DNA from: Mesostigma viride
Lineage: Eukaryota > Streptophyta > Mesostigmatophyceae > Mesostigmatales > Mesostigmataceae
Direction: 5' to 3'
Length of the DNA: 64,000 nucleotides
Assembly: GCA_009746045.1 (NCBI GenBank)
Contig: RPFO01000080.1
Location: forward strand, 9,030,113 to 9,094,112
The notes beneath the pieces are model-generated. The model searched no databases and was not told where the DNA came from. It saw nothing but the letters and a program-made list of their open reading frames with translations. Position numbers and translations under genes: made by a program. The first letter of the stretch is position 1; the number at the start of each line of letters is the position of its first letter. This document shows positions 7,364 to 45,829 of this stretch, piece after piece.

Positions 7364-8390
7364 CATATTCCCTTGCTGATGGATGGAGGTGGGCGAAGCC
7401 GCGAAACCGAACTAGTCTAAGTCTAAGCTAATCTATGTGGAAAAACCCTAACTACTCTACTCAGCAAAGCGCCCCTTCCTCTTGGGGGGGGCGGCCGGCT
7501 TGCCCACAGGGGCTGGTGTGTGATCCTGGACAATCTTCTTCCACCTCATCTTGTTCTGACATAGCAGTCCAAGCAAGAGAGAGGGAGTGTCAGAATGCGA
7601 TGTTCAAACGGGGCTGGGACCACTAGGTCGGCCAGCAACTGTTGTGGATAGGTCATGGCAGGTTTACCCATCTTTCTAGGAATGTCCTTGGGGCCAGGCC
7701 AGGTCATGCAGGATATGCCGCCCTGGCTGGCCAAGCCGCCGCGGCTGGCCAAGGCCGGCGCTGGGGGCCCGGCAGCCAGACCGAGGTCGGTGTCTACCTG
7801 ACTGGTGCGAGCAAGATGTCCAACGAATGCTATCCTACGCTGCCTAATCTCGTCCGAAACGCGAGGCATACCCTGATGCAAAGACTCTAATGACCTATGT
7901 GTGGAAAACCATCTATTCAGGACCTGTCGGAGCATCCTATAAACCGTGCGCCGTCCAGCCGGGCGGCCAGCGTGTCCGTGAGCGTCCGATGCCTCGGCGC
8001 CATACGTGAGCACCGTGAGAACCAGGACCTTGAAGAGCATTCGCTTGCGGTGCTCGCTCAGGGCCTTCAAGTGCCAGTAGGTTTTGAGCGAACGATGCGT
8101 ATAGCCCAGGCCAGGCCGATGCGGATGTCCACACTGATCGTCGGCGGTGTCGGGGAGCATGCTCCCCAGCAGTTTGAAGCGATCACGGAACGGGACCTGG
8201 ACCGTCCCGTCTAGCAGCCGCGGCAGCGGCGGGCGACTGGTAGCCCCAATCACCACAGCCCTATATATCAGATCTGATTGCCCAGATGTCACAGCGGCTA
8301 TTTTGGTCGCGCTGCTTTATCACAGGGATAAACTGTTGATGAATGTACAGTAGTTATAATGAAGTTGCCGTTTATGACCGGGGAATGACA

Positions 8391-8674: not shown

Positions 8675-11600
8675 TCAGCCCACCAGGCTGTCCAGAATAG
8701 ACAGCGCCTGAGAGCGGTAGCTGCCCCCAAAGAGGTTGTAGTGGTTGAGTATGTGGTACAGCGTGTAGATGCGGTGGCGCTGTTCCCACCCTTTGTCCTG
8801 CGACCAGCACAGCAAAACGATAGCATCCCATGGCAAGGTAGACAATGCAAACGATTAGCTGAATGCATGACCCGCTCGTCGTGTGTTAGCTGTTGGTTGT
8901 GGACTGCGTCATCGGGCGATAGATTTGTGCAAAGATAAAAATACAAAAATCGACGCGGCGCGACCGCCGTAGGTAGAATGAAGACTCCCTGCTGACTGTT
9001 GCAGCTGACGCTAGAAAGACAACTACAACCCGTCCGTCCGGCGACCGCCACGAACGCTACCCACTATCCAGTACTCACAACCAGGCCAGTAAGGACACCC
9101 TGCGCGAAGGCTTGCGCCACCTTTAAGGGGACGGGACATGCGCGAATTTTGGCGCCGAAAAATTCGCGGCACCGTCCGAGGTACCGTCCGTACCGTGAAA
9201 AGTGGGTGCACGGTGCGCGCACCCCTTGCGGAAGTGGCCAAGGCGACTGCATTCAGGCGAAACTACCACAATTGGGCAAGCGAAATGCAAAAATTTTACT
9301 CGAATCTAAAAGACGATGAGTTTATGATGTTAGTTTGTGGCGGAAATTAGCTGGTTTACAATATCGCTGTTATTTTTTTATGCCATCGGCATGGGGGGTA
9401 ATCTGAATTTTTTGGTCGCGGAATGAGATAGAATTCATGATAGCGGCTGTAAAATAGCGGTTTTGGGGGCTGTTCTGACCGTGAAGCAGCCATTAATATC
9501 GGTTGCATTGAATTCTAAACCGAGCGGGTGCTTTTTGCCAGATTTTGGGCCATTATCGGTAAGAAATTGTTCAGACCTGGGAAGTGAGTGTCTGACCTGT
9601 CCATGTAAGAACGGCGGTTGTTGCGCGCCTGGGCGAGGGATTTACGCGGGCAAGGTACAGACTTGTCGCGAATGTTATCTGCTATCAGTCCTTTCTAATA
9701 TGAGCTCATCGTTCGAAGTTTTTTTGCGTTCTTTTTGGGCAGTTTCCGCCAGCTAGCTCGCCGTTGCTTGCCGTTGTGTTGTCGAATACCTGGCAGCTTT
9801 AGATTGTTTTCGTTGATGTCGTGATCAGGGCCGCTTCAGTCGCAGCCTATAGCTTTTTGGGACGGTATAAGGCATTTCATAAAACGCGTTCTGGCAAGGA
9901 TGTTGTGCGTGTGGACGCTTCTTGTTGTGTGAGAGTGACGCACCCTCTCTTCGCAGCGGCATCACAGCGCTCATGCGCTGGAGGGCCAATGGTTTCTTTC
10001 CATTTTATCGTGCAGGGGAGGAAGTGTTTTATTGACGATCATGTTAGAGATATTGCATTTGTGTGACTGCATGTAGATAGCTGCCACCATTGGTTGTTTG
10101 AGCTTTCCTTTGTTATGATGATGTGACAAGACTGCAATGTGCTGAGCCAACCATGGTTGACATGCATGACTGCATGCAAGCTTTATATACCATGTTTCTA
10201 CTTGGTTCCTTGCCCTCCATAGTCCCAGTTCGTCATCCATGCCGGGTAGGGCAGTTTAGGAGGTGTTGTAGTGTTGATTAGCTTGGTTGGCATCAGCCTT
10301 ACGCCCTAACCTCGGAGAAACATAGGAAATGCTGGTTAGGCATGTTAGTGCTACCATTGTCAAGGCTATGCACATATTTACAAGGCTGGCCATGCTCGAG
10401 GGACGGTGAACGCGTATGAGGTGCGTGGCCGCCACTTTGCACTTTGTAAACATACTCAGCATCGTTTTGGTGCATGTTGGATGGCATATGAAGTGGCCTT
10501 GTGGGGTTACTAGCTTACGGAGTGGTCCTTAGCGCCTTGTCACGTGGTCATATAACCCATCAACTTGAGCAGTTCTTGTCACAATGACCCCCCACATTGA
10601 GCATGCGTTGCCGTCAGCGTGGAAGAGTTAATTATGTGTGCTTTGGTCAGTTTGCAGATGTCTTTGATGAAGAAGGGGGTGCTAGTGTGGCTAAATGGTT
10701 ACTCAAATTTCCTTGTAGCGTCTACATGGGTGCCCGTCATGGAATGGTTGTAACTTGGGCAGTTCTTGTCAGAATGGCGTCAAACCTTAAACATAGGAGG
10801 TACCATATGTGCAGAGAATGGTAGTATGTGGTTTGGCCCGTTTTCACGTGGCTTAGATGTATAAAGGGGTGTCAGTTTGGTTAAATACTAGCTAAAAACC
10901 TCCCTTAACTTCGCAGCTGGTGACAGCCTATGAACGTCAATAACTTGAGCTGTGGTTGTCAGAAAGACCTCAAACTTTGGGGCTGCATGTACCCCCCCTC
11001 TCTATTATTTGAAAATATGTGATATGGCATTTTTCAAAGTGTTTATGATTTGGTTTGTTTCTTTTTATTTTTTAAAGTACGTGTTTTGCGGGAAAATTGA
11101 TAACTTTTGCACCCTTGCTTATTTCTTGGCCCCAATCAGGTAGAGTTTCTCAATAGTGGGGGAACTATATGGAAATATGTGATTGGGTCAAGAATGATGT
11201 GCCCATTGTGCTAGGGAAAATGAGACTAAAATAGCGTCTTTTCTATTTTTAGCGTGTTACCGGTACATGGTTTGGGCAAGTACCCCCCCCAAGCGATTGG
11301 AAAATTTTAAAATCATATTTATGGTCCCCAATCATTTCATTGCATTTTTATCTCATGCATAGGTATGGTTTCCAGAAAAGTGCACTTTAGGTATGTCCTG
11401 TCCCCTTAAACCATTCCCCTGTCGCCCCTTGCGTTGGGACAACTACTCCCCCATCCGACGCCTCCAACTCCTCCTGTCGCGCCGCATCTATCATTCCATT
11501 ATCCGCGTGATTCGACGTATGGCATCTGTATTCTGTGCATTCTGCAAACATACATTTCGAGGTCTCTGGGACCCGCGAGGCTTTTCGTGTAACTTTGTGC

Positions 11601-14600
11601 GGGTTTTCAGGTAATTTGTGTGGTTTTCCGGGATTTTTCCCCGATTTTTTGGGTAACTTTGTGCGGTTTTGGGGGTAACTTTGTGCGTGTTTTGGGGTGT
11701 ACCTGTCAGTCGGTGCGATTCGACATCTGACGGTCTGGAATTTTCAAGCCTGGCATCGCTGGGTTTGAAGGTGCTGTCTCTCGTCGAAAGGACTCAATGG
11801 GGCACAAAAATCACTACAGGTCTTCCCTTCTCTTTCCATGGTCAAGCAAGCAGGCAGTCGATCAGGCCCTCAAAAGTCCTTTTAGTGGCGTGGAACTGCC
11901 AGGAATCTCCAAAAGAACCAGTAACGGGCTGCGTGAAGGCAAGGTAGATACCGTCTGGCTCGCCACGGCATGAAGACGCCAGCAAAGGAATCCAGGTTTG
12001 CGCCATTAAAAAAGTCATGGAATGGAGAGCAACAGCACAAGTAAAGAGCAAAACAGGCTGGCCGCCCACAGGCGTAAAGAAGTACGTGCTAGGGTGCAGC
12101 ATGGCGGGTGGTTGGGGAAGTCATTCTTAACAGCTCTCGTCGTCAACTTTCCTGGGCCGCAAGGTCTCACCTTGGGGATTACTTGGTGGTATGCATTCCA
12201 GAAGCTCTGGCTGAAACCGGCACACCTGCATGGACACGAAGTCAACACTACGGCAATACATGGCATCAGAGTCATTGCATTGCCATGCCAGCGTGGGCGG
12301 CGTGGGCGTGCCACCTCATTCTGCAATGTTTCATAAGCACATGCATACGCTGGCATACCAAAAACTGGACCAAGTGACCATCTCATTCGGCGATGTTTGC
12401 ACGGCGGCGACGGTGCAGGTGGTCGTAATGAAACCCCCCCAGTACTTGGAGCATGTGCTGTCAAAACAAAGCAAAAATCTCAAAAGCAAGGCAATCCCTA
12501 TCTAAAACATTGTCGGGACCACCATGGCATTACAGGGTGTGGCAACTGGCCATGACAGCTCCAGCTGTTGTCACTTGACCTAACCCACCCCTGTGGCGTA
12601 GGACCCCACCAGGGCGTGTCAAAGCTAGTGTGTGATAAACGAGCTTGTTTCGCCATGTGCACACCACCCACCAGGACATGCCACACTGGCAATATTAATC
12701 AACCTGTTGCCAAAGCACAATTAGCGCCTTAACACCCCAAACTGTACAAACCTGGACATGCCCAACTGGCTGTATCAACCGATGTGGCAAGCCCTTTACA
12801 TAACCACGAGGACATGCTGAACCTTGGTAGGACATGCCACCGGTCACAGGACCACTAATACTACACTCTATACTACGGTACTACTAGCTAGTAATACGTG
12901 ACAACACCCACCAGGACATGCCACCGGTCACAGGACTACAAATACTGCTAACACTATATACTACGGTACTACTAGCTAGTAATACGTGACAACATCCACC
13001 AGGACATGCCACCGGTCACAGGACTACAAATACTGCGAACACTCTATACTACGGTACTACTAGCTAGTAATACGTGACAACACCCACCAGGACATGCCAC
13101 CGGTCACAGGACTACTAATACTGCTAACACTCCATACTACGGTACTACTAGCTAGTAATACGTGACAACACCCACCAGGACATGCCAAACTCGGCCTCGT
13201 GGTGCCCGTAGTAGGTCGCGGGGTCAAACACCGAAGGGGCGCCGTCCACCGCCGCCAAGTTCTGGCACATGACACGAGCGGGAGGCCAAAACCCATGTAC
13301 ATAGTGAGGGTCGGGGCCAAACCGTGCGGATGGTGAGGGGTCAGGGGCAAGACTGTGTCGATGACGAAGGAGTGGGGTGGGCAGAACGGCACAAACGAGC
13401 AGATGAGCTGACTTTACACCCAGCCCTAAACTAAAGGAAGAAATGGCTCTGGAAGGAGGCTCTAAAGCCTCCAGATACAAACATCTAGTGCTATAATACC
13501 AGTGATCCAGAAGATCCCACTCCAAGCACATGGACAGGCCAAGCCTCACGTGGCGGACGCTATTACTAATGGCACGTGCATCATACTTTCCGGCTCCCTT
13601 CGGATCCCTTGGCAGCACCGCCTGCCACTGTGTTGCAAGATATTTGCGACTAATATCACCTGCCAGCACGCTCCCAAATATCCACACAGACGGCCTGCCG
13701 CCACGCTCCCAGCCATTAACACGTAAGTAAGATATGTACGTACGTACATACGTAAGTAGGTAAGTAAGTACATGTGTGCCATGCGCGTGGCCAAGTCACA
13801 TGATGGCATGCTAATCTCATCATATAATGACACAGAAGCTAAAGCAAAGATCAGAGCAGGTGTCTAGTTGTGTGCCAACCATGCACCGCCACTAGGCCGC
13901 ACCTACCCCGCTCCACAGGTCCCCGTGCAGAACGCTCGGCTTGACGGTGATGCCTGTGGGCACGGGCAAGGAGGGTGAGAGCGAGGGAGGGAAAGCCAAG
14001 TTCCCATGCATGTGCAAGCATAACCAAAGCGAGAGAGGTGCAAGCATGGGCAACACTAGAAACGTGCAAGCATGCATGAGCAATATTGGACAAGTGCCTG
14101 CCGTGCCCGGTCCGTGTCTCTCAGACACAAAAGTAAAAAACGCCTCTGAGAAAAGTTCCCTGTGACATGACCTGGCGCACGCATGCAAGAACAGAAACCC
14201 CTAGGAGGATATCTTTGCAAGTTGCACTGTGCACTTTGCACTCGTGCGGCTACTTGCTTGCTCACGTAGGTACCAACTTCCTTGCTAATTCGCTCAACAT
14301 TAGTATTATGCTTGACAAGAAACCTTGACCGCTGTCCCCCACCTTCAAGATAATCCTCCAAGCGTCCACACGGTTTATGCCCTTACCTTTGAAGAAACCT
14401 CGGATGCGTGTGCACAACATTCTCCCCTCCTCCTACCCTCAAAAAATCCCTCCAACGCTCGCACAGCGTATCCCGTTGTCTTCAAACATCACCCTGGAGG
14501 GATCACACACTCTACGCCCCTACCTTCGAAGAAATCCCCCAATTGCTCGCACAGCTTGTCCCCCTTTGCACTCAGCGCCGAGTCGCGGGCGAGTCGCAGC

Positions 14601-17600
14601 TGGTGCTTGAGGCGCCGCTCGCGGAAGAAGTCCACCCTGGCCAGGTGGATGTAACAGGGGAGCAGGATACGAACACAGCATACCGGGGAGAAAAACTGGG
14701 CAGGTGGAAACGGTTGGCCAGGGGGTCCATGGGGTTGAGATAACCGTCCCAGAACAAGTGAATCGGAAGGTGGGGGCAATGGCTGTGATGAAAATGGGTC
14801 CACAGGAGCCTAAGAGAGGTAAGTGAGGGGGTGGCCTTTCATCAACGGAAGTAAAGTAGAGTAGCCACAATTTTCACTCATTGCCAGGTGGTCATGGGGC
14901 AACGTGGTTCCTCGGAACAAAAATGTGTGAGAAATGGTTACCAAGAAATAACAAAAGCCATGCACTTGGACACCTTTGATGCTAGCACAACACACGTTTG
15001 AAGCTCGCTGGAACAGCAATGCATGCTAGTCATCGACATAGGCGCACCCACGCGAACCACCAGTACTGGTGACCAGCTACTGCTCAGTCCCGGGTACGGA
15101 TGGTAGCCTTCACAGCCGCGCCTCCGGCTTCGCAAGGCACCCCTTGGAAGGGGGTTGGACTAGGAAAATGTTGGCACCCACCAGCCATCCCATAACAATA
15201 CAAGATAGAATCGCACGCGGAACACCTTCTTCGGGTGCGCCCAGCCACCTGTCGTTTAGAACTTGTAACCAAAACTGAATATAGCATTCCCCACCCCCGG
15301 GCACCCACCAGTCGTCCATCCACTCATTGGGCTGCGGCGTGGCCCCGATCGTGTTGTTGACGACGAAGCCAAAGCGGCCGGCGCGCGCCTCCTCGTGCAG
15401 CGGCTGCGATTGGTGCATGAGCGCCAGCTGGCGACCCTGCGCACTCCCACGCATCGCGCATGTGCGGTGGTGTGAGTGAGTGAGTGGGTGGGTGGGTGGG
15501 CGGGCGGGCGGGCGGGCGGGTGAGCGAGTAAGTGATCGTGAGTGCGTGCGTATGGGTTTAACTTCGTGGCAGAGCCAGCAGTAAGCACACACATATTTAT
15601 GGCGTGGCAGCGCCAGAATAAACAGCACACGGCCGATGGCAGCGTGCATGTGCTAGCATCACAGACTGCTGCAGGATAGTGGCGATGCTCTGCATAGATA
15701 GCCAGCGCAGAGCAGTATCGCGGCGTCATGCAACGCAGGGGTAAGGATGACGGGCCGACATATCTGGCGTGTGGTTGGCATGTGGCAACAGGTGGAGGGC
15801 TCGGGGATGAGCAGCTCATGCGTGCATACGGAGGCTATGTGACACAATTTCGCGTAGAAAAAAAGACCAAAAAGATAACAATGTTAACAAAACATGATGA
15901 TGTGATGGCAACTTAAGTGTGACGACTGCTTTATGTTGTGTCATGCTTACCAGGCTGGCCTGGTCGGCTGACCCCCCAAACTCGAGGTACTCCATCACAA
16001 TGAAGGAGCCAGAGCCGGCGGGGAACGCCCCGTAGTGGAACACTTCTGGCAGCCGCAGCGTCTTGGAGTGGCCGAGCGCGCGCAGGCTCTCGGCCTCCCC
16101 CTTGAACATCTCGAACGACGACTCGCCGCGCGCGCTCTTGACAAACAGGCCGGGGCCCTTCTCTGTGGACGGATTGGGTCGGGTAGGGAAGAATGGCTTT
16201 GGCACCATCAGGGATTTCACTGATTGGATGGCCTACGGGAAAAATTAAGGGGACGGTCCCGGCGCGAATATTTTGGCGCCGAAAAATTCGCGGTACCCGT
16301 CCGTACCGTGAAAAAGTGGTGCACGGTGCGCGCACCCCTACCGGAGCTGGCCATGGCGACGTGCTTTCAGGCAGAGTAGAAAAAGATAGCTCGCGGAATG
16401 CAGAGAAACTGAGCGAATCTTAAAGACGATGAGTAAATGATACTACTTCGTAGCGGAGTTCGCGTTTTTTGCAGTGTCGATGATTTTATTGATGACCATC
16501 GCCACGGGGGTCCAATCTGATGTTTTCGTCGAGAGGAATAAATTAGAATGCACGCTGGCGGCGGTGATTGTCAGGTTTTATGGGCTTTACCTAGCGTCAA
16601 GGATGCGTTTAAATCGTTATTGGTAAAGCTTTAAAAAATTTGCTGGGTTTCGGCAAGATTTCCGTCATGATCGGTAAGACACTCTCCAGGCTCGCGGGAT
16701 GCGCGTCTTATTATTCCATGGAAGGTTGTTCTTTCTTGCGCCGCTGGGCGAAGGACAATTCCGGTAATGGTACGATCGTGTGATCAACGTGACCCTATGA
16801 ATGTTTCGCTTCCTTTATGGGTTATCAACGCAAGTTTTCGGCTTCTTTCCGTGCAGTTAGCGCCAGGTATAATGCCATTCCGTGCTGCGCATCGCCAGAT
16901 TCCTGGCACCTTTCAGTGGTTTTTATGTACGTTGCATGGCTGGGATGTGTCAAAGCGTGACCGTGGCATATCGTCAAGTTGTCAGGGATTTGCTGAGTGG
17001 TTTCTTGGAAGGAGATTGCTAACAGCACTCAGTTTTGTGTGAATATTGACGCGGCCTTTCTTAGCAGAGGCTTCATTGTGGTTAGAGGCTCACAAGCTTG
17101 AGTTTGTTTCTTGGCAAACAATTGCGCTGGAAAGAAAGGTGGCAGTGGTTTTTCTGAGGGGCATACTGCATGGGTGGAACTGCACGTAGGTAGGGGTTAT
17201 CGTTGTCTTGTTGGCCTTTCTCCCACTAAAATGGGAGAGCCCTAATTCATATGCTAGCAAGGCAAGGTAACCATGGTAAGAAGCCTTGGCAAGCAGCATG
17301 TATGATAATTCTGCTTTCTCTGTGGACTGTCTGTTGTTACCCTTGTTGGGCAATTAGTGGATATGGCTTTCTAGGGTGTGTTTGAGCTTGGTTTTGGGAT
17401 GATGCCCACACCATAAACCTGGAATATGCTTTAGAAGTGTTGGCTAGGCATGTAGAGCTACCTGCCTCATTGTTGTGCACACACGCAACAGGTTGCCCGT
17501 GTCGAGGTAAGGCAAGGGCACATGACGTGCCCAGCCACCTCCTTGTACATTGTGGTCGAATTGGGCATGGTCAGGAGCCTTTTGGATGGCATAGGAAGTG

Positions 17601-19001
17601 TTAGTGTGCCTTAATACTCACTAATGCCTTCCTTAGCGTCTGCACAGGTGGCCAACTGCCAAAATTAATAACTGCTACAGCTGAGCTCAGAATGCCACCA
17701 AACTTTGACAGTGCCTTCTATGGTCATGACAGAATTTGACTTGTGCTTTTCAGGCCTAATTGATGTGTTATGAGTGTGTATGGGGACGCCCCGCCTAAAA
17801 AAGCGTATTTTTGGCCCAAAAATTAATAACTCAAAGGGATGTGCTGATTTTGTTGATCCAATTAGGTAGAAACAATGTCCCATGACATTTTTATATGGGG
17901 TGTGCTTTTTTCATGCAACTGGTTCTCCCACTGTTTTGGGCAAGATGTGCCCCGGACAGCGTTTTTTTCTATTTTTAGCTCATAGCCGGTGTATGGCTGG
18001 GGGTAGTACCCCCAACAAGTGGTGGTATGCATGCCCAAACATCATGTTTATGGTCCCCAAACATCATTCAGTGGTTGTCAGTTGCATTTCTGTAGTTATT
18101 AGGGGGGGTAAGTTTTGATATATTTCTATGGGACCCTCCCCTTAACTACTGGAAATATGAAAAGTACTAACAAAATAGAAAATATGCATGGTTGAAAAAA
18201 ACTTAAATGCCTCTATCATTGAGATATTTTACAGCAGCAGTATTTATAATTCCTCCATATGGTATAATTCCTCCTTATAATTCCTCCATATCGTACAGTC
18301 CCTCCTTATACTTCCTCCATATCGTACAGTCCCTCCTTATAATTCCTCCATATCGTACAGTCCCTCCTTATACTTCCTCCTTATCGTACAGTCCCTCCTT
18401 ATAATTCCTCCATATCGTACAGTCCCTCCTTATAATTCCTCCATATCGTACAGTCCCTCCTTATAATTCCTCCATATCGTACAGTCCCTCCTTATAATTC
18501 CTCCATATCGTACAGTCCCTCCTTATAATTCCTCCATATCGTACAGTCCTGCAACGCGATCAGGATTGGTACCTGTCTCGTATCGCATGGAGGGTGTGCC
18601 GACAATACAACATACTATAATGACCAAACACACTAGCATAGTGACCACCACCCACCTGTCTCGTATCGTGTGAAGGACGCCCACCCAGAAGAACCCTGCG
18701 GCCTCGTCGCCACCACCTTGCCAAAGGGCAGGTTTGCCTCAACCCAGCTGCTGATGTGGGCGGTCTCGCTGCTGGCAGCCCCCGCCATCGCACGCGTGGC
18801 CAGCTGGCGCGCACTGCGCCTGCGTTTGCGTCCAGGAGGGGTGGGGGGGGGGAGTGGAGGGGGGATGGGCCGGTCGGGCGCGAGGGGAGCACAGGGAGGA
18901 GGGAGTTCATCAGTGGGGTGGAGATGGGAGAGGGGCAGGAGCAACGGTGATGGAGGCAGGAGCTGGAAAGGACGGGAGGCGCTCACGACCAGAGAAGGCA
19001 T
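8675..19001 (-). CDS. FN3K: Fructosamine/ketosamine-3-kinase (FN3K family), 8 exons, putatively plastid-targeted
   Basis: Phosphorylates the C3 hydroxyl of ketosamines on glycated proteins, which then break down spontaneously (family knowledge). Exons on the minus strand: 19001-18656, 16162-15951, 15436-15309, 14636-14524, 13953-13907, 13261-13176, 12225-12171, 8797-8675. All have GT-AG junctions and matching phases, giving 1110 nt and 369 aa. Residues 1 to about 75 are Ser/Pro/Leu/Arg-rich, like a transit peptide; a second Met sits at 72. The nucleotide loop is QGSSGWASF (102-110), the ATP lysine is in LFVK (K124), the catalytic loop is HGDLWSG (H276, D278), and the metal aspartate is in FDPATYY (D295), followed by MSWCAGF and the family C terminus YHILNHYNLFGGSYRS. 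The loop lacks the cysteine reported as redox-active in plant and human FN3K. Introns 1 and 7 hold TTAA-flanked transposons. The first ATG was chosen because it gives the transit-like leader. Confidence 0.93.
9127..11405. mobile_element. TTAA-flanked non-autonomous DNA transposon, copy A (FN3K intron 7)
   Basis: Bounded by TTAA at 9123-9126 and 11406-11409, with inverted ends ggggacgggacatg / catgtcctgtcccc (the right end has one mismatch). Near the left end is a palindromic block around ggcgcc (about 9140-9168). No transposase frame is visible in 2.28 kb. TTAA target choice is typical of piggyBac and Kolobok elements; the superfamily is inference. Shares both ends and internal blocks with copy B at 16249-18141. 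Confidence 0.8.
12831..13180. repeat. 88 bp tandem array built from the FN3K exon 6 splice junction
   Basis: Units start at 12831, 12915, 13003, 13091 and 13179 (spacings 84, 88, 88, 88). The last unit is the real 3' end of exon 6 with its donor (CTG|gtgggt at 13176/13175). Each intronic unit repeats the end of the exon plus this donor, except the oldest, which is degraded. More diverged relics (ggacatgcc near 12674-12680, 12755 and 12811) extend the array to about 12660. Confidence 0.9.
13728..13775. repeat. GTAAGTA/GTACGTAC simple repeat
   Basis: Short GTAC/GTAAG-rich tract inside FN3K intron 5. Intron 5 has no other recognisable feature. Confidence 0.7.
14338..14523. repeat. Echo array of the FN3K exon 4 end (about 46 bp unit)
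   Basis: The exon 4 end with its donor (plus-strand taccttcgaagaaatccc at 14521) is repeated in diverged form at about 14341, 14385, 14435 and 14479. The echoes at 14341 and 14385 keep a GT in the donor position (GAAG|gtgg and AAAG|gtaa read on the minus strand). Confidence 0.75.
15473..15535. repeat. GAGT/GGGT/GGGC tetranucleotide tract
   Basis: Simple repeat (gtgagtgagtgggtgggtgg then gggcgggc) in FN3K intron 2, just upstream in gene direction of exon 3. Confidence 0.9.
16249..18141. mobile_element. TTAA-flanked non-autonomous DNA transposon, copy B (FN3K intron 1)
   Basis: TTAA at 16245-16248 and 18142-18145 flank ends ggggacggtccc / gggaccctcccc. The first 190 bp match copy A (aaaaattcgcgg, ccgtccgtaccgtgaaaa, gtgcacggtgcgcgcacccc). 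Internal motifs such as aactttga and a 'ccccaa..atcat' block near the right end are also shared. 1.89 kb with no transposase frame. Two relatives in two introns of one gene suggest preference for this open region or for AT-rich introns. Confidence 0.8.
18238..18547. repeat. 31 bp tandem repeat (about 9-10 copies)
   Basis: Unit reads ttataattcctccatatcg + tacagtccctcc. Lies in FN3K intron 1 between transposon copy B and a duplicated piece of the exon 1 end at 18572. Confidence 0.95.
18565..18590. repeat. Echo of the FN3K exon 1 donor
   Basis: cctgtctcgtatcg at 18572 repeats the exon 1 end at 18655, 83 bp away. On the minus strand it reads CGAGACAG|gtacc, so a GT donor is preserved. Confidence 0.65.
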
Positions 19002-21513: not shown

Positions 21514-21517
21514 TTAG

Positions 21518-23258: not shown

Positions 23259-23402
23259 TTAGGGTGACTTTCTGTTACTTAGGACTTTCTGTTGCTTAGG
23301 AGGGCTGGCTTTTTAGCCAACTTATCAGGAACGGTGTTAATGAATAAATTAATTAATTTCAATCATTACCAGCAATTAAAAATTTATTTATTAATCAGGA
23401 TT

Positions 23403-23638
23403 AAAATTAAATTAAATTAAATTATAACATGCCTCCGTTGGGAGATCATGTAGCACATATTCCTTGATGGATGGGTGGGGTGGAAGGAGCCGCGTAATCG
23501 AACTAACCTAACTCTAATCTAGCTAGTCTAGAAAAGTCCTAACTACCCTACTCATCAAAACGCCTCCTCCGCTTGGGGGGAGGTGGTTTGCCCACAGGGT
23601 CGGGCGTGTGAGCCTTGACAATCCTCTTCCACCGCGTC
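23403..23638 (-). mobile_element. 236 bp 5'-truncated family A LINE with perfect target duplication
   Basis: Contains the TTTAA tail, 3' UTR and last about 25 codons of the LINE at 1-2925, inverted. Flanked by taatcaggatt at 23392-23402 and 23639-23649, an 11 bp perfect target duplication. This defines the true 3' end of the family. Confidence 0.95.
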
Positions 23639-23649
23639 TAATCAGGATT

Positions 23650-24277
23650 GGTGACGCCGCTATTGCTCATTCTATTAGACAACTCAGTGCTAAGCTGCAG
23701 TTACGCTGGTGTCATGCAACGGGACCGCCCGCAGTTAATTTACTAGGTAACCGTGTTTGCCTTGTCTTGAAATGTGCTTCTTTGTGCTCACATCCTTGTG
23801 ATCGAATCAGCCATCCCCTCCCACTCGACTGTACTGAGGACTAATGCTCACGTAACGCTGTTACGCATTAATTAATTAATTGAGTGTCCTTGTTTGGGCA
23901 GCAATGTCAAACAGAATGTCAAATCGACAATTTAAATAAAAGAAATAGCACATTCCGGCGCAGCACACCACCACCAGGCATACCGAAAGCACTTGGCTCG
24001 AAGCCAGCTCGTGTATCACTCCAGGCGCAAGTACAAAAATAAACCTACTTTCCCTCTCAAGGTGGCATCAAACCCACTTAAATCAGTCGTGATGTTGGTC
24101 AACAGGCCAACCGCCACATTTCAAAAACTAACTACATTTATTACGTTTATTGACAACATCATGCAACCTAGTCAGCAGAACTGGCGCAATCTCCCCAGAA
24201 CTACGTATCATCTATGTTGTGCATGAGTGGTGGGTTGGCCACCACACAAGGATATCGTCTCGTTGAGGACGCTAGTC
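23650..24277. other. Non-genic region downstream of PGDH
   Basis: No gene recognised. Should contain the PGDH 3' UTR and polyadenylation site. No clear TGTAA-type signal was found close to the stop codon on the minus strand. Confidence 0.4.
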
Positions 24278-27200
24278 TTAGATCTTGACGAACGCGACCT
24301 CATCAATGGCGGGGATGCCACGTACTGAAGCCATGACGGCAGGTGGAACCTCCCCATCCACACCCAGCGCGCTCACGGCCTGGGGACGGGAAACACGTGG
24401 GGGGGCAGGGACACCATCGCATGTGACGACGCGGCCGTCACACGACGCATGGAACCGAAGGGAAGAGGCAGGCGCACGACATATGCACGTGAGTAGCTTG
24501 TCTCATGCAACACAGTCACCATATCGAGCGACGTGACAAAGCAAACAAGGTTGAATCTAGTGTACAGCACATTCCCAGAGCATCCCATTCCTAGCGGCCC
24601 TAAGAGGGCTCTTGGGAGGTCACAAGGATGAGCGTCCTGGATTGGGAAGGGACAGGAAGGCCCCCAAACACCTGGGTGCCCCCAAAGTGCTCGCTTGCCT
24701 GCTTGTACCAAGGCAGACAAAATAGGTTCACCTGCTGTCTATCTGCGCGTATTTGCAGGAAACAGACAAAGGAGGCTCACCTGCTTGTTTGAGCTTACCG
24801 AAAATTAGGACTCATACTGCTTGCTTGCGCATTGCAAGAAGCACACACGAGCACACTCAACATCTTCTTCGATGAGACATGTTGAGACTAAATGAGACAT
24901 GATAGGGCGCTGTTGAATGGTACGAGATAAGACACTGTTTTCATTAAGACCAGATAAGGCACTGTGTTCGATGGTACGAGATAAGACACTGTTCGATTCG
25001 AGACAAGATCCGACATCATGTTCAAAGCGGCACGAACGCTCACCTGCTTGTTGGCAGACTTGCGAGAGACGGACATGAAGGCGATGTTGACCTTGGCGTC
25101 ACCCAGCCGCTTGCCGAGCGCGCCGATGATGCCTGGCTGGTCGTTCTGGCGCGTCAGCAGAAGGTTGCCCTCCATCGACACGTCCACCGCAAAGTTGCCC
25201 ATGCGCGTCAGGAAGGGCATGCCCGAGCGGACCTGTCAAAAGGGGACAGGACACCGTGGTAGGGGGGGAGGGGAGGGGAGAGAAAGAGCGGTAGGGGGGA
25301 GGGGAGGGGAGGGATAGAGCGGTAAAGGGAGAGAATGGGGATGGGCACAAGCGCGCGAGGAAGGGCAATGCGAGAGTCGACCTGGGGGAAAGAAATGGGG
25401 GAGACACACGGTGGAAACAAAAGGTGGATGCTAGGGGTGGAAACAAGGGAGGTGACCAAGGGGGGGACAAACAGGAAGGGGGAAAGAAAAGGGGGGCAGG
25501 CAGGCAGTGGTTAGGTGGGGTGGGGTGGTGGGGAAGACAGGCAGTCATTGGGGGGGGGGGGGCAGCAGCGATGGGAATGCAAGGGAACTGGCTGGGAAGA
25601 TGCACATAAGAAATGCTGTGCCCGAGCAGACCTGCGTGGCGGCCCGCAGTAATCATGAAAAAAGGTAGCGTGGGAAGGACATTGCCAAGTTTGACGTATG
25701 GGCGGTAATCAGTAAAACAGGCGTTGAAGGACATTGTGAAGTTGACATAAACCTAACATAAACCTAGCGCCACAAAGGGCATGCCCGAATCAACCTGATT
25801 GTGACAAGGGGGGTGGGGGTGGGGGAGGCTAATGTCACTCCTCAGTTTGTGGACAGGTGTCCCTGGGAGGTGGTACCGGCCACGGAGGGATGCCCCCCAA
25901 CACGGCATACGGTTCCTTGGCCGCTATACAATAGGCTAACCCCAACCATCCTTGCTTCCTCACCACCCAGCTTGCCCTCCACCGTGATGGGACCGGCCGC
26001 GATCGCAGACGCATGGGTGTTGGTCTCGCTGCCTCGTTCACTTCACAGTTCACCTCCTTGCCTCCCCATCCACCCGTCTTGCCCTCCCACCCACCTTGCC
26101 CTCCACGGCAATCGCGCCGTCCGCGATCGTGGACGCGTGGAAGTTGGTCTCGCTGCCGCGCAGCTCCACACAGATCTTGGCCAGCAGCGCCTCGCTGCCG
26201 CTGCCGTCATCCGCGGGCTCCACAATCTCCACGATGCGCAGGCCGCGCTGCTTGGCCAGGTAGTCGGCGTTGACCAGGTTGACAAACGCAGAGGAGACCT
26301 GCACAGTGGGGGGGGGACCACGGGCGAACATTTAGGGCACAAACAGGGAATACGGAGTGTATAGGACATATAGGGCATACATGGCACAGGCAGGGCACAA
26401 ACAGGGCATGGATAGAAGACGAGTGTGAGATGAAAGGGGAGTCGGCGTTGGCCAGGTTGCAACCAGGGTTAGGCGTAAAGGGGGTCAGGGACTTGACATA
26501 ACGTAAACACGAAAGATGGAAAAAAGGGTTACGTAAAGCGTAAAATCGACGTAAAGGTTTACGTGCTTAACGTAAAGACCTAACGTAAACGTAAAAACAT
26601 AAAACCGCATAAAAGCTCATGCAAAAGCTCATGATTTTCCACCAATTCATGGCAAAAACTAGACTCTGCTGGTCGTGCACCACCAGGCGCCGCGCCGACG
26701 CGGCGCCATTAGGCCTACAAGAGCTCATAATCTGCCGACATTCCCACACGGGTTTACGTTACGTCCACTTAACGTTACGTTTTTACGCGTAAAATGACGT
26801 AGAAAGGCAAGGTAAAGGACGACGTACGTCAATGCATTACGAGCCCATTTTTGCCACGTAAAGCGTAACGTAAAGCACACGTAATTAGGTCAACGCTCAC
26901 CAAGAAGTGTTCACGTAACGTAAACCCTTTTACGCCCAACGCTGGTTGCAACGCCGAGGAGACGGGAACACCTAGGGCACAGTTAGGGCACATAGGCAAT
27001 TGACTGCCCATTGAAGAGCGTGGGATGCAAGGGGTAGAGTCGGCGAACCAGGCAGACAGTCCATACACCCCGTGCGCATATTCGTTGGGTGGACTGACAA
27101 GATCAATACACCAGCGACGCACCGACTCCACCAGCCCCTTGATGACCATCGCCCACCGGCCACTTTCAATAAACAGCATTCCACTGGTATGGCCTAAACA

Positions 27201-30200
27201 AACAGCCACGCACGTACCGGCTCCACCAGGCCCTTGATCACCATTGCGCGCAGCAGCCTGGTGTCGAGGTCGTCACCGCGCGACGTCGAGTATGTGATCT
27301 TCACGTCGCGCACGCCCGACTGGGGGTGGCAAGGGAGGGAGGGTACCAAGGTGCGATGAGGTGTAAATTAAAGCATTCACCATCGTACCAGGACAGGACG
27401 ACTACCAGAGTCAACACACGCAGCCGGCATACTAGGTCAGATGCCTGGGTAGCAGATGTAAGTTAAGGGCCCAGGTATCGAATGGCTCGCGGATGTCCCT
27501 CTGCTGGGAAACATCACAGTAGATATAAAAACTTCCAGGTTGGGAAACATCCGAGTAGATATAAAAACTTCCAGGTTGGGAAACATCCGAGTAGATATAA
27601 ATACTTCCAGGTTGGGAAACATCCGAGTAGATATAAAAACTTCCAGGTTGGGAAACATCCGAGTAGATATAAAAACTTCCAGGTTGGCAAACATAAGAGT
27701 CGAATACAAAACTTCCGGGTTGGCAAACATCAGAGTCGAATACAAAACTTCCGGGTAGGGTCTCTGGAAGACTTATTCCGGGTACGGTCTCTGGAAGACT
27801 TATCGTTGAAGACATCTTATCATTGAAGACATTCCATGGAAGCACGACTCAGGTACAACACACGCACAAGGCCTGAGGTGCCAGCTGTCTTCCCCCCCCA
27901 CACCAATCCCCCTGCCCACCCTGCCACCCACCCCTCACCATCCCATCCTGCCAGGGCCAACAGCTGCCCACCCTGTAACCACCTTTGCTAGTGGCACAAG
28001 CCGGTCCCGAGACTCTGGCTTGCTCCCTAAACTAGGCGACCCGCAGGCCCCCAATGTATCCATCATTAACACGCCCCCCGCTCCCCCCACCTGGGTGACC
28101 AGCTGCCCCTCCCGGCTGCTAACATTATTACTAGCAGACATTTGTCCCCATCACTGGTCCTACTCCCCTCATCTCGGCTACCTTCATTACTAGCAGATGG
28201 TTGCCCCTATCACTCGTCCTATTCCTCTCACCTTGGCCACCAGCTGCACGGCCACGCGCCCCAAATTCTCGGCCAGCTTGACATAGGGGGTCAGCTCCGA
28301 CAGCACCTCCGCAGGGACCATGGGCGCGTTGACAGCGGTGGCCGCCAGCTCGCCGTTAAGGGCGCCCGCGACCGCCTCGGCAATCTCGACCGCGACGCCG
28401 GCCTGGTGGCGAATCGATACAGGTACATGGATGTATATATTACATTGGCAAGAAGATAAAAGCATAAATATGACTCCACCGAAACGCTGGCCTGGATATT
28501 AAAATATGTGGGGCATGTAAACCAACCAAGCAATTAGTATGGAGATAAACCAACCAAGCAATCAGTATGGAGATAAACCAACCAAGCAATTAGTATGGAG
28601 ATAAACCAACCAAGCAATTAGTATGGACATGTGGGTGGCAAGCAGCCAGGAATACGTTCAGGATCTCCCCGTAAGGCACGCTTGGTGTAAACAGACGCCC
28701 CAAGCACGGAAGCCCGTGTACCCGGAATACCTTGCACACACGCCCCCAAGCACGGAAGCACTTGTACCCAGAATACCTTGCACAACAAGCAAGTCATACA
28801 CGCGAGCGGCAGGAGAGTATGGGAGTCTTTAAAGCCCCGCCCGCTGAGCCTATTAAATGACAGAAACAACTGGTGCGACAGTTGCACACTCTTACTATCT
28901 TCAATCATTCATGGTGCGCCGTCACAGCCCATGATCCACCCGCGACTCGGGAGCGCATCATCCGACTACATGAACTGCCCGCATCTCACCTGCGCCTCCT
29001 GCGTGCTGGCGCCCAGGTGCGGCGTGCACAGCACATTCGCGCGCTTGATCAGGGGGTGGTCCTTGGCGGGGGGCTCCTCCGTAAACACGTCCAGCGCCGC
29101 CTGAACAAGCAAGGGTAAAGGGGTGACCAGCCATGACTAGGTGAACAGGTTAGCAACAGGATACTCTTCTGCAAACACGTCCAGCGCCGCCTGAAAAAGG
29201 GGGTGAGGGTTCTAGCAGCATGCGCAGATGAAGGCACGAGTAATAAAGCAACAGCGCCTATATAATAGATAATAGAGCCGCAAGTCCCCAACACCCCCCC
29301 CCACACACACTGCCTGGCCAGGAGTGACCGTCGCATATGCAGAAACAATTGCCGTGTTAATGGGCACGTTGTGTTGAAGGCGCATGGTTGGTAGTGCGGA
29401 AGGGAATTATAGAAGGGAGAGGTATTCGCGGAGAACAAGTTATAGGGGGGGGAGGTATTCGCGGAGAACAAGTTCGTCAGAGCAGACGGACAGGGTGAGG
29501 GGAAGGCGGAACGGAGGGGGGGGGGATCCAGGGGAAAGGAGGCAACGCGTTGGTCCATAAAACGGCAAAACAAATGGTATTCTGGGGTTGTTTCGGGGGG
29601 GGGGGGGGGGGGGGGAGGATACAACTAGCTACTGTTTAGGGACTACACGGTGCGTGGGAGTAATGCGTCATCATGCGTCATTCAGCTGCCGGGCATCTGG
29701 GGAAAGAAAACTAATAACAATTTATAGCATCAATAATAACAATGATGCACTGCGGCTCAGTGACCAACCTTGGGTCACAACAGTGCAGGCCGGAAAACAA
29801 ATCTATTCCGAGAATCACCACCACCACCTGCATCCAGCGCATAAAGCATGCCAACATGCTAGCTTTCACAACTCTCCGCCACTACATCGACTGCATCCTG
29901 CGAACAAGTCAAGCCAACATGATACCCTGTTAACTCACCGCCGCCACCTTGCCTGCATTGAGCGCATGCAACGTGCCAGCTCTCACGACTCACCGCCGCC
30001 ACCTTGCCCGAGTCGAGCGCGCGCCCAAGCGCATCCTCATCAATAACACCGCCACGCGCCACGTTGACGATGCGCGCGCCGTGCTTAATCCTGCGCACAT
30101 GTGTCGAGAGTGTGGTAATTTGTGTTGGGCACATGGGGGTTTGGTCACTCATGCGCATGGTTTACAAGGGTGCTTGACTACTGTGCACAGTGAAGGGCTT

Positions 30201-32900
30201 CCGGGACTATAATGGGCGGGGTTGGGGGGCAAGGGTGGTATAGGGGGGGGGGAGTGGCTGGAATGAAGCTAGCCCTGGGAATATCGAGGCGTTGCTGCTA
30301 CATGAAGGTGTTTATGAAAGGGGGGGGTGGGCTGGCCCTGAACTCCCGCATCCACCAACTTCTGCGCGCGTAGCGTCGCTCAACATCACATGCCGCTGCC
30401 ACCCACTTTGTACTGGTTCATCTTCACCACCCAACAGTCACGGCTAGCAACTATGGCCACCCACTTTGCGAATGCGGCGTCGCGGAACACCTCGTCGGTG
30501 GCACACAACCACTGTGGCTGCCCCATCTACATCCACACTCTGTGCCTTTGTACCCGCGCCTTGTTTGCCTTCCCCATCCACCCACTTTGCGAACGCGGCG
30601 TCGTTGAACATCTTGTCGGTGGCGGGCGTGAGCGGCATGTGCAGCGAGAAAAAGTCCCCCAGTTCCAGCGCCTCGTCAAAGGAGACCAGCCGCACGCCCA
30701 CCGCCTTGGCCCTGTCCTCGCTCGCGTACGGGTCGTGCGCCACCACGGTCATGCCCAGACCCTTGGCGCGGCGCGCAACCTCCGTGCCCACCTGCGCACG
30801 CCAGCATCATCAAAAGTGCCAGAAGGGAGAGCTATCAGCATCAGCCGCTACACTGGGTGGTGGGGCACTAGTTCTGCTCGCTGCCCACCGGTGCATGTAA
30901 GCGACAACGTCCGCACAAAGGTCACCCTCATCAGCACCAAACCGTGCCTGCCTGTCCATGCATGATGGCGGGGGGCAGGGCTGTCACCATCATCAGCACG
31001 AAACCGTGCCTGCCTGTGCATGCCAGCATGACAGGCTCAGCGGCCACCTGCATCCCACTTGCCCCCTTCCCAAACCCCCTTCTCAAACCCCCTTCTCATC
31101 TTTCCAAAGCCGCTTCTCACCTGGCTGAACCCCCTTCTCACCTTTCCAAAACCGATAACGGCCAGGGTCTTGTCCGCCAGTGACACACCCACAAACTGGT
31201 TGCGCTTCCACTCGCCTGCCAGGGGGGAGGGGGGCAGGGAGAAAGGGGGGGGGGAGGCAGGGGGGCAGGGGGCAGGAGAGCAGGTAAACCACGGAAGGCA
31301 CGTGTTTCGTGTATGATTATAACAGAGACGCACGAGGACAGGCCATCATGCTGTCCATGAGGCAGCCCATGTGTACACAATTACTGTACTGTACTGTACC
31401 AACACCGTCCAGGCCCCATCACATTCACCATGCAAACCATCAACCCATGACATGGATATGTAATACATAGTTGCCCCAACACTCCCTGGCGGATGATCCC
31501 CTGAACCTGAGACGCGTTGCGTCCGAACCGTTCAGCGCCACGTACTTTGGTCACACATGCAATCACCCAGCTGCCTCGCACGTGGCTAGTTGATAAGCAA
31601 ACCTCACTGGGACCCAAAACCTATCTACACCAGCGCTGCCAGGGCATTGCAGCCGAGCAATGAAATACCATCGCGGAGCCGTGAAACGTACCATCACCAT
31701 GCAGCCGTGGATTGCCACCAGAGCTGATGAATCGGAACCCTCGGATCATCAGGGCATCCGTGTACGTGTACGGATTAGCGGCGAACTATAGCTAGCATTA
31801 GCAATCAGATTGAACGAAGGAGGATGCCTTTTCTGTACTCCTGCCTGACCAGGGTCTGACAGGTACTTCTGACAAGTACCTGCTTGCCTGCCCGGCCAAT
31901 CATACCCATCCATTGCACCCCATCAAGTCACCTATACATTTGCCAGGCTATGCTGAACCCTACATGGTACACATGCCCCGCATGCACAATAACTATAGCC
32001 CACATACACACAGCAGCATGCTACTTCTGCAAGGCAGCATTGGCTATCATGCAGCATTGGTAATCAAGCCAACCTAGAATTGGCTACGTAGACCCTTGGG
32101 TGCTTTGTTATACATGCATATTTTGCTAAATATAGACATACCCTTCTTCAGGCTGGTGTTGGCCTGTGGGATGTTACGCGCCACGGTGGTCAGCAGGGCA
32201 ATGCCGTGCTCCGCCGCCGCCATAATGTTGGCGGTCGGGGCGTTGACGACCAGGCAGCCGACCTCGGTGGCGGCCACCAGGTCGACATTGTCGATACCCA
32301 CACCGGCACGGCCCACGACCTTGAGGCTTCCCTTGGAGGCTTGGAACACCTCCTGCAGGGGCCGCGTGTCAGTGCAGCAACCCACGGTGTGTTACGATCG
32401 ACGACATAGATGGTCTGCAGACTAGGATATACAAGAAGTAGAGAGCAGACCGCAATGGCCTCACGTGACTATGAGCTTACCTTGGTGACCTTCGTGCCAC
32501 TGCGCACGATCAGGGCGTCATATCCGGAGATTTTCTCGCACAGCTGGGCTGGCGTCAGGTCATAAATGCAATCCGCAACCATTCCCATCCTCTCCAGGAT
32601 TTGCACACCCTCCTTGCCGAGTTTCTCGGACACAAGCACGCGCGGCTTGGCGTCCGCGGCCGCATCGGCCATGGCAACCGTAACGCATTCCTGAGACTGG
32701 CTAGCCGGGCGCGAGGACTGCACGAGAACCTTGCCAAAGAAGCTGCTGGAGCAACGAGCCGAGTGCTTCCGGCTGCATTTTTGGGAGGGAGCAGCCTGGC
32801 GCTGCTTCTGAGCAGCGGAGGCGGAGCCCACAGTTACCCTACCAATGGAGCTAGCTATGACTGCCGAGGAGGAAGAGGCGGCCACCACAACGGACGCCAT
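24278..32900 (-). CDS. PGDH: D-3-phosphoglycerate dehydrogenase with ACT domain, 11 exons, putatively plastid-targeted
   Basis: Oxidises 3-phosphoglycerate with NAD+, the first step of the phosphorylated serine pathway. Exons on the minus strand: 32900-32481, 32352-32142, 31215-31142, 30791-30586, 30090-29994, 29100-28990, 28402-28232, 27319-27218, 26298-26095, 25232-25044, 24379-24278. All junctions are GT-AG with matching phase; 628 aa, normal for plastid PGDH. A Ser/Ala-rich transit-like leader (1 to about 80) precedes the substrate loop RSGTKV (133-138), AGVGID (156-161), Rossmann motif GFGKVG (232-237), catalytic Arg316 in NVARGG, Glu345 in FTEEPP and His364 in TPHLGAST, a regulatory intervening domain (about 400-550) and an ACT domain ([20 protein letters not shown], from about 555), usually the serine-sensing module. 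ATG at 32900 was chosen; an in-frame stop lies upstream. Introns carry echo arrays and a hAT MITE. Confidence 0.96.
24685..24800. repeat. Echoes of the PGDH exon 10 donor
   Basis: The exon 10 end (gctcacctgcttgttggcag at 25039) recurs as ggctcacctgcttgtttgag (24774) and ggttcacctgctgtctatct (24725), with a weaker copy near 24688. On the minus strand the echoes keep CAG|gtga. Confidence 0.75.
25250..25560. repeat. G-rich low-complexity sequence in PGDH intron 9
   Basis: Purine-rich tracts (ggggaggggagggg and similar) with a G11-12 run near 25550. These are candidate G-quadruplex sites on the DNA plus strand, i.e. C-rich in the transcript. Confidence 0.8.
25360..25800. repeat. Echoes of the PGDH exon 10 acceptor
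   Basis: The exon 10 start (plus strand aagggcatgcccgagcggac ctg, about 25214-25236) recurs at about 25361-25385, 25612-25637 and 25770-25798, between long G-rich tracts. Each copy reads ag|GT on the minus strand, so the acceptor AG is repeated with the first codons. Confidence 0.75.
25971..26040. repeat. Echo of the PGDH exon 9 3' end (about 65 bp)
   Basis: Repeats 26095-26160 with about 80% identity, 124 bp away (cttgccctccac..., gccgcgatcg, ttggtctcgctgcc). Here the donor has become AAG|ctgggt, so the splice site is lost although the coding similarity (a VEGK-type end) is clear. Confidence 0.9.
26437..26980. repeat. Echo of the PGDH exon 9 acceptor, interrupted by the hAT MITE
   Basis: gtcggcgttggccaggttgc before the MITE and gccgaggagacgggaacacc after it together match the exon 9 start (gtcggcgttgaccaggttga...gcagaggagacc, 26264-26300). 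A further diverged copy lies near 27028-27055. Confidence 0.85.
26464..26944. mobile_element. hAT-type MITE, 481 bp (PGDH intron 8)
   Basis: Ends cagggttaggcgtaaaggg and the inverted cagcgttgggcgtaaaaggg, flanked by the 8 bp duplication gttgcaac (26456-26463 and 26945-26952). CAG-type ends, an 8 bp duplication and dense subterminal acgtaaa motifs on both sides are typical of hAT elements. No coding capacity. It landed inside an older echo of the exon 9 start. Confidence 0.88.
27115..27165. repeat. Echo of the PGDH exon 8 donor
   Basis: ctccaccagccccttgatga at 27126 repeats ctccaccaggcccttgatca at 27221 (95 bp apart). On the minus strand it still reads VIKGLVES followed by gtgcgt. Confidence 0.88.
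27515..27765. repeat. 36 bp tandem repeat (about 7 copies) in PGDH intron 7
   Basis: Unit gtagatataaaaacttccag + gttgggaaacatccga. Because 36 is a multiple of 3, all frames without a stop stay open through it. The resulting repeat-peptide frames are not called as genes. Two shorter 'ggtacggtctctggaagac' units follow. Confidence 0.95.
28080..28231. repeat. Echo array of the PGDH exon 7 donor
   Basis: The exon end (ctcaccttggccaccagctg at 28226) is echoed near 28168 and 28088 (cacctgggtgaccagctgcc), with attactagcagac/atgg...tatcactcgtcctattcc blocks repeated between. The 28088 echo keeps CAG|gtggg on the minus strand. Confidence 0.75.
28515..28630. repeat. 28 bp tandem repeat (4 copies)
   Basis: Unit aaaccaaccaagcaattagt + atggagat in PGDH intron 6. 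A 52 bp two-copy repeat (ccaagcacggaagc...ataccttgcaca) follows at about 28695-28790. Confidence 0.95.
29165..29200. repeat. Echo of the PGDH exon 6 acceptor
   Basis: aacacgtccagcgccgcctg at 29174 is an exact 20 bp copy of the exon 6 start at 29084, 90 bp away. It carries the ag|G acceptor and the first codons (AALDVF). Confidence 0.9.
29596..29617. repeat. G homopolymer run
   Basis: Uninterrupted run of about 20 G in PGDH intron 5; likely length-variable and error-prone. Confidence 0.95.
29815..29993. repeat. Echo array of the PGDH exon 5 donor (about 55-60 bp unit)
   Basis: actcaccgccgccaccttgc at 29988 (real donor) is repeated at 29933 almost unchanged (GCG|gtgag kept). Diverged units containing ctccgcc/ctgcatc and gccaacatg lie upstream at about 29870 and 29820. 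Confidence 0.85.
30395..30515. repeat. Echoes of the PGDH exon 4 donor
   Basis: acccactttgcgaacgcggc (30580, real exon end) recurs as acccactttgcgaatgcggc (30459), extended for about 50 bp, and acccactttg alone (30401). The 30459 echo keeps GCAAA|gtgggt on the minus strand and codes a similar [12 protein letters not shown] segment. Confidence 0.9.
31065..31141. repeat. Echoes of the PGDH exon 3 donor
   Basis: Between 31070 and 31141, cttctcatctttccaaagcc, cttctcacctggctgaaccc and shorter cttctcaaaccccc units repeat the junction cttctcacctttccaaaacc at 31134. One echo (31125) reads ag|gtgag on the minus strand. Confidence 0.75.
31216..32141. other. PGDH intron 2
   Basis: 926 bp intron with no mobile element recognised beyond a C/G-rich stretch at its end (31217-31280). 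Confidence 0.7.
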
Positions 32901-45491: not shown

Positions 45492-45829
45492 GGAGCAACT
45501 TCTCGACCCTTGTTTTGATCGACTCCAGCTCCTTCCCCCGAAACTCCATGTTCAATGGTGCGAAGGCTGGGGTGTCCTGCAACATCGGAATGCGGTCTGG
45601 ATCCACAAGTCGGACGCCAAACAGCGGCCGCCCCTCCGCATCAAACCTGTATGGCTGTGTCATCGCCTTCCCGCACCGTGGCGCGCCTTCCTGTCGAGTC
45701 CCCGCGGGCTGCCACGGCGTCTTTTGGGACTCCGTGGTCCGGTAGGACAACCAGGTCTCTGTGTTGCCCTGTACCTGGAAGAAGACGGCGTGGTGCACCT
45801 TCATTGAGCGACCGCGTTTTTCAGGCACC

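Follow-up and report, generated by a model that had tools for sequence, protein, structure and literature searches.

Copies of exon edges with their splice sites in introns of two genes of the streptophyte alga Mesostigma viride

Introduction

Copies of exon edges within neighboring introns have recently been given a name. Hron et al. (2026) described "sequence stuttering" or "exon stuttering" in genes on the dot chromosomes of the chicken: the adjacent intron contains direct repeats of the lateral part of a coding exon along with its splice donor or acceptor (PMC12954441). In that report, the exon part of the copies lies within 1 base of the junction in over 90%, intron-length variation between individuals is one of the three main features of stuttering, and among other vertebrates only a set of GC-rich gerbil genes is mentioned (PMC12954441). 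The chicken screen covered proximal introns only and counted blastn-short hits that were 20 nt or longer and scored 42.1 bits or more (PMC12954441). Our literature search found no second paper under either name.

Single cases are known from the human CBS gene. There, 844ins68 duplicates the intron 7/exon 8 junction without pathogenic effect, since splicing relies on the distal site, and a 31-bp VNTR is numbered c.1444_1467+7 (PMC2630376). By our reading of this numbering, the VNTR repeats a donor because its unit consists of 24 exon bases and 7 intron bases. Tandem repeats at boundaries in human segmental duplications alter intron structure, differ among recent paralogues and can give rise to introns (PMC2812944), and a tandem duplication involving splice motifs is reported from a potato RdRp (PMC4974935).

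Here, we analyzed a 64-kb stretch of DNA (the window; C1106:9030113-9094112 of the assembly) from Mesostigma viride, a green alga of the streptophytes. An initial annotation had proposed that exon edges and their splice sites are copied within at least 11 of 17 introns of two host genes, that a general process of intron growth across splice junctions is at work, and that this process had no standard name. A name does exist, as described above, and so do the single human cases.

Results

Gene models of the window

The two host genes were modeled by exact threading of the annotated proteins with a script that accepts only GT donors and AG acceptors. The FN3K gene (protein-ribulosamine/fructosamine 3-kinase; 8675..21192) has 10 coding exons and 9 introns, and its annotated protein, P0001 (jgi/Mesvir1 Mv07395, jgi/Mesvir1/27675), is 99% identical to the FN3K typed from the window. 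The PGDH gene (D-3-phosphoglycerate dehydrogenase; 24278..32900) has 11 exons and 10 introns, and P0121 (jgi/Mesvir1 Mv07396, jgi/Mesvir1/27676) is 100% identical to the PGDH typed from the window. Both genes, and all the echoes described below for them, are on the minus strand. Threading thus gave 19 introns and 38 exon edges instead of 17 introns. Two 5' introns of FN3K had been missed earlier, so the former FN3K intron n is the annotated intron n+2. No further multi-exon host gene was recognized in the window by coding score and by eye. Pieces of a reverse transcriptase-like (LINE-type) protein were seen by eye in translations of positions 314-2285 and 7546-8316, and long G+C-rich repeat arrays, in which several frames of each strand are mostly open, occupy positions 45400-47300 and 50480-51900.

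Exon edges are echoed in the adjacent introns

For each edge, the last or first 40 nt of the exon were aligned to its own intron, and the match was compared with those in 300 dinucleotide shuffles. Edges are labeled by the annotated intron number followed by D (donor) or A (acceptor). The results showed that 11 of the 38 edges, which are not independent samples within one gene, passed at p<0.02: 1A, 3D, 6D and 8D in FN3K and 4D, 5D, 5A, 8D, 8A, 9D and 9A in PGDH. A rerun with controls gave 12 of 38. Donor and acceptor sides were both hit (seven and four edges, respectively), as initially annotated. The match of FN3K 1A was off register and unconvincing. When the edges were aligned to non-adjacent introns of the same gene, 4/152 passed; none of 38 passed against reverse complements, and exon interiors gave 2/45. 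Because these controls were near chance, the similarity is local and in direct orientation.

The strongest evidence for the echoes is their register. The match stopped exactly at the junction in 8 of the 11 significant edges, comprising six of the seven donors and two of the four acceptors. Seven of these eight matches were directly followed by the correct dinucleotide, GT or AG, for which a hand calculation with 1/16 each gives a chance of about 3e-8. The echo alignments extend past the junction into intron sequence, and some echoed donors are letter for letter identical to the real one. Intact-looking copies therefore do form rows of extra splice sites, as had been claimed.

The core set of echoes is real. 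Seven of the introns initially listed are firm by the edge test, namely FN3K 3, 6 and 8 (formerly 1, 4 and 6) and PGDH 4, 5, 8 and 9; the other four, which are described with their p values below, are marginal. The statement that copies are ordered and diverged held, with ordered arrays at FN3K introns 6 and 8 and with divergence in most copies. The unit range of 46-124 bp had to be widened, to main spacings of 44 to ~160 bp plus shorter arrays of 21 and 59 bp and copies up to ~560 bp away. The real junction is indeed the terminal unit, but this follows by construction, because copies were sought in introns only.

Anatomy of the echoes

In FN3K, the intron 3 donor echo (18571..18593; p=0.007) matches 18 of 21 exon bases, is followed by GT and lies one unit of 83 away. 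Intron 5 has a weak donor echo, CTG/GTGGGT (15173..15190), that had been listed as intron 3; the match is short (16/18), and the edge test gave p=0.47. Three diverged donor echoes form an array in intron 6 (14300..14475) at offsets 88, 137 and 181, which makes four ordered copies, the real one included. The intron 8 donor carries echoes of two ages. An 88-bp tandem array of 4.1 copies with 94% matches (12829..13187) has its outermost unit ending 12 nt inside exon 8, and its inner units hold a copy of the donor; three older donor echoes (12655..12822) follow at offsets ~368, 424 and 504, with 15-19 exon bases aligned. Three echo copies in this intron are identical to the real donor.

In PGDH, a period-21 array (31084..31150) runs from intron 3 into the end of exon 3, with a marginal edge test (p=0.05). 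The intron 4 donor has a first echo (30457..30502) with 33/38 exon and 8/8 intron bases matching and an identical AAA/GTGGGT, and a second one (30343..30400) with 28/38 and 14/17, giving three ordered copies, the real one included. Two donor echoes of intron 5 (29815..29969) are found at offsets 55 and 117, the first with an identical GCG/GTGAGT and the second with GA. The acceptor echo of the same intron (29164..29232) matches 24/27 exon and 29/42 intron bases and keeps TTTCAG. A sub-threshold acceptor echo in intron 6 (28474..28495; p=0.09) also keeps its AG. At the intron 7 donor, a 59-bp tandem array is accompanied by a marginal exon echo (28067..28232; p=0.08 in the first run and 0.017 in the rerun).

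The intron 8 donor echo (27090..27156) has a unit of 95, 28/34 exon and 21/32 intron matches, and GTGCGT. On the acceptor side of this intron, an exon echo with 31/36 exon bases (26437..26529) and a further match (26942-27000) both lack the AG. The intron 9 donor echo (25940..26030; unit 124) matches 48/60 exon and 25/29 intron bases, with GT changed to CT. The acceptor echo of this intron (25345..25449) keeps CCCCAG, and with further echoes at 25600-25634 and 25767-25828 there are four ordered copies, the real one included, with CAGGT unchanged. Marginal donor echoes in intron 10 (24760..24916) lie at offsets 174 and 264 (p=0.05 and 0.03 in two runs).

Repeats and elements of other kinds were also seen in these introns. 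Purely intronic minisatellites at 18244-18549, 27505-27760 and 28518-28627 have units of 31, 36 and 28 bp, respectively, with 93-97% matches and no exon contact. Two related elements lie inside FN3K introns 9 and 3, at 9123-11409 (~2.3 kb) and 16245-18145 (~1.9 kb). They have TTAA flanks and imperfect terminal inverted repeats (TTAAGGGGACGG...), are 67-73% alike in pieces, and are presumably non-autonomous TTAA (piggyBac-type) transposons.

Decay of the copies

The decay profile was drawn from 17 echoes chosen by hand, with the register set by the 12 exon bases adjoining the junction; it excludes the recent 88-bp copies, the acceptor-side echoes of PGDH intron 8 and the marginal introns. Identity was 82% over the 12 junction-side exon bases, a figure biased upward because the same bases set the register, and 82% at the splice dinucleotide. 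Farther into the exon it dropped, to 65% between 12 and 20 bases and to 47% between 20 and 40 bases from the junction, which means that many copies carry only a short piece of exon. Past intron position 6, ungapped identity was 31-38%. GT or AG was strictly in register in 13 of the 17 echoes, and in 15 if a one-base shift was allowed. This profile is consistent with short exon parts decaying neutrally while the real exon copy is held still. The 88-bp array (94%) is fairly recent; other arrays are old and ordered.

Junctions compared with intron interiors

Interior positions of the same introns were tested as though they were edges. In the rerun on FN3K and PGDH, 48 of 288 interior positions passed versus 12 of 38 real edges (one-sided p=0.027); for donors the figures were 27/144 versus 8/19 (p=0.026). 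Gene by gene, edges versus interiors were 8/20 versus 67/252 in PGDH, 4/18 versus 21/252 in FN3K and, in three genes introduced below, 3/8 versus 19/160 in PGDH2, 1/23 versus 16/224 in a TRAPPC9-like gene and 0/10 versus 3/96 in a Hint-like gene; none of the five comparisons was significant alone. Random stretches passed the interior test at 36/360. Interior duplication thus makes PGDH stand out among the genes looked at, and FN3K is near background. Pooling of FN3K, PGDH and PGDH2 gave 15/46 edges versus 107/664 interiors, an approximately twofold excess (one-sided p=0.006), but these genes were pooled for being affected, which favors an edge excess.

In simulations, a pair with one copy held constant stayed detectable longer than a freely drifting pair, with a power ratio of 1.21 at 15% drift, 1.64 at 20% and 3.24 at 25%. 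Given an advantage of 1.64, the pooled edge excess is unremarkable (P=0.21); given 1.21, it is still notable (P=0.025). A drift between the 15% and 20% values is suggested because the exon parts of the echoes are ~82% identical in the last 12 bases. Therefore, most of the edge excess, though perhaps not the whole of it, can be put down to exon-anchored pairs decaying more slowly.

Ungapped repeats crossed 10 of 19 donors versus 2.1 expected from interiors, and 3 of 19 acceptors versus 2.4, in a count that carries a detection bias toward exon-anchored pairs. In the gapped edge test, seven donors and four acceptors passed, with no clear donor preference. A donor-specific mechanism, suggested by the ungapped count, was weakened by this test and by PGDH2.

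Recurrence in other genes

To judge how general the echoes are, ~247 kb of the assembly was sampled at 25 loci, six of which were all N. In one sampled stretch (C1:5000001-5030000), predicted proteins resemble giant-virus genes by eye, among them a D5-like helicase, a DNA cytosine methylase and a NifS-like protein, and then the sequence turns to N; from its predicted proteins, this stretch may be either a large DNA virus that has become endogenised or a contig of foreign origin.

Two genes served as controls, the TRAPPC9-like gene and the Hint-like gene, with domain support for TRAPPC9-Trs120 (3e-17) and Hint (6.5e-9). Their exons came from an ab initio exon finder trained and checked on FN3K and PGDH (17/19 introns exact, in-sample), and the Hint-like exon set is a mix of two model rounds. 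Of 33 edges in these genes one passed (two of 22 under the initial exon models), a smaller share than the 11/38 of the window (Fisher p=0.004).

PGDH2, a paralogue chosen as the best other match to PGDH, lies on another contig (C1890:1027500-1034200), and 357 of 623 aligned residues are identical to PGDH. Its model, completed by hand from tblastn, has four introns. Intron 4, at codon 373 in phase 0, is at the same position as PGDH intron 6, and the last exon spans a region that is split by four introns in the window PGDH. Three of the eight edges were echoed, namely the intron 3 donor and the intron 3 and 4 acceptors (1/4 donors, 2/4 acceptors). The echoes of the intron 3 donor and intron 4 acceptor have GT and AG in register. 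At the intron 3 acceptor, the copy found by the edge test lacks AG, and two further copies retain it.

Echoes were thus present in three of the five genes looked at, on two contigs. The effect recurs, and in this small sample it is gene-specific and not general. With 1/33 edges in the control genes and 3/8 in the PGDH paralogue, the initial claim of a general process did not stand. Our guess would be that high expression lies behind the echoes in both PGDH genes.

Comparison with exon stuttering and related systems

The chicken screen was run here on the plus strand only. For PGDH it gave four proximal hits and one distal hit of 20 or more nt, versus none in 20 shuffles, and for PGDH2 one proximal hit of 34.2 bits; there were no hits in FN3K or in the TRAPPC9-like and Hint-like genes. 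On this strand, no hit in the window and control genes reached 42.1 bits, the best having 36.2 bits, because the algal copies are more diverged; this value is the noise cut-off of the chicken study, not a mechanism criterion. TRF repeats covered 11% of the 19 introns, and up to 50% of single ones, versus 8% in the TRAPPC9-like gene.

The anatomy is that of stuttering: direct copies lie in the adjacent intron, their source mostly touches the exon border, unit lengths range from tens to hundreds of bases, repeats confined to the intron occur as well, and the coding exon is intact (PMC12954441). Matches ended at the border in 8 of the 11 significant window edges, the same tendency as in chicken though at a lower rate. 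On the other hand, the host is a green alga, the copies are fewer and more diverged, and, unlike stuttering genes as described there, affected and unaffected Mesostigma genes have a similar G+C content of the CDS, 0.65-0.68 (PMC12954441).

As in CBS 844ins68, an intron/exon junction is copied in tandem and the distal site, to judge from annotation, would be the one used, but the CBS cases are single polymorphic loci of one gene, whereas Mesostigma has many junctions with old copies (PMC2630376). The gain of new introns reported for human segmental duplications was not detected here (PMC2812944). In contrast to the potato RdRp, the unit here includes pre-existing intron sequence, and the predicted cross-homology was not found (PMC4974935).

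Discussion

The echoes in Mesostigma are genuine and extend a phenomenon that was named only recently to a distant lineage; their cause is likely to be ordinary local duplication. For the copies observed in three genes, with their register, order and decay profile, the best explanation is repeated local tandem duplication that is tolerated since the outermost splice site is used; we put its probability at about 0.68. Short stretches, mostly 44 to ~160 bp, would be tandemly duplicated again and again in the introns of some genes, PGDH foremost. When a unit happened to straddle an exon-intron border, its copy would contain a piece of the intron along with the splice site and the edge of the exon. 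To judge from annotation, the spliceosome would keep to the outermost site, and because that site stays in use the protein would be unchanged and the duplicate nearly neutral. The mutational step may have been slippage, template switching or end-joining repair, followed by unequal exchange. Later rounds would build the arrays, and inner copies would decay. A small position matrix scores some inner donors as high as the real one, so competition must presumably be avoided otherwise, e.g., by the order of transcription. What stands of the initial idea that introns grow by duplication across junctions is local tandem duplication with some units straddling a junction. An aim at junctions is not supported, since duplications are found in the intron interiors of these genes too and the twofold edge excess may largely reflect detection bias.

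Junction targeting deserves weighing all the same. Transcription, R-loops or G-rich donors could make exon borders hot spots of tandem duplication, which would account for the ungapped count at donors and for the excess of donors, and of pooled edges, over interiors. It would also suit FN3K, where interiors pass no more often than random stretches and yet edges do pass, and where at least two duplications with differing exon extents (12 and ~19 nt) took place at the intron 8 donor. Acceptors, however, are crossed at about the expected number, PGDH2 has no consistent side, detection favors exon-anchored pairs, and four of the seven firmly echoed introns lack a G4 motif on either strand. We consider targeting unlikely, and its extended form, in which border hot spots linked to transcription or splicing and common to birds and green algae lengthen introns from their ends, quite improbable. 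Neither of two candidate correlates held: G4 motifs had no clear relation to echoes, and the G+C content of the CDS is alike in affected and unaffected genes.

That the echoes are scars of intron birth, left when introns arose by tandem duplication of exon sequence containing AG/GT, is very improbable. The firmly echoed PGDH introns 4, 5, 8 and 9 do lie at positions that are intronless in PGDH2, but PGDH2 may simply have lost introns, and its own echoed intron 4 is at the sole position shared with PGDH. Birth also predicts that the intron ends with a copy of the upstream exon end and begins with a copy of the downstream exon start; such cross-homology reached p<0.03 only at FN3K intron 8 (0.026), about chance for 38 tests on 19 introns, and the echoes contain real intron sequence adjoining their own junction. 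Hardly any more can be said for selection that keeps the echoes as regulatory decoys or alternative splice sites. The echoed donors that do not differ from the real one (three copies in FN3K intron 8, others in PGDH introns 4 and 5), the AG retained in four acceptor echoes of the 17-echo set, and the PGDH intron 5 acceptor echo, which is 87 or 90 bases off and so a multiple of three either way, would agree with it. Against this, GT/AG identity (82%) is not above that of the adjoining exon bases, the PGDH intron 8 acceptor-side echoes, outside that set, lack AG, and the nearest units of the seven firm donor echoes (83, 88, 88, 121, 55, 95 and 124) are not multiples of three, so their use would shift the frame; we regard such selection as highly improbable. 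Chance similarity or an assembly artefact might be read from the four marginal introns among the earlier 11 and from the unreached chicken cut-off, but we give it almost no weight: shuffles and the three edge controls were near chance rates, and the copies are mostly diverged, unlike a near-identical misassembly, and recur on another contig. For the core set it is already refuted.

Under repeated local duplication, exon-anchored echoes would act as slow clocks for duplications whose intronic twins have faded, because selection holds one copy. That the anatomy of stuttering extends to a streptophyte alga suggests that this simple way of lengthening introns and adding splice sites is widespread.
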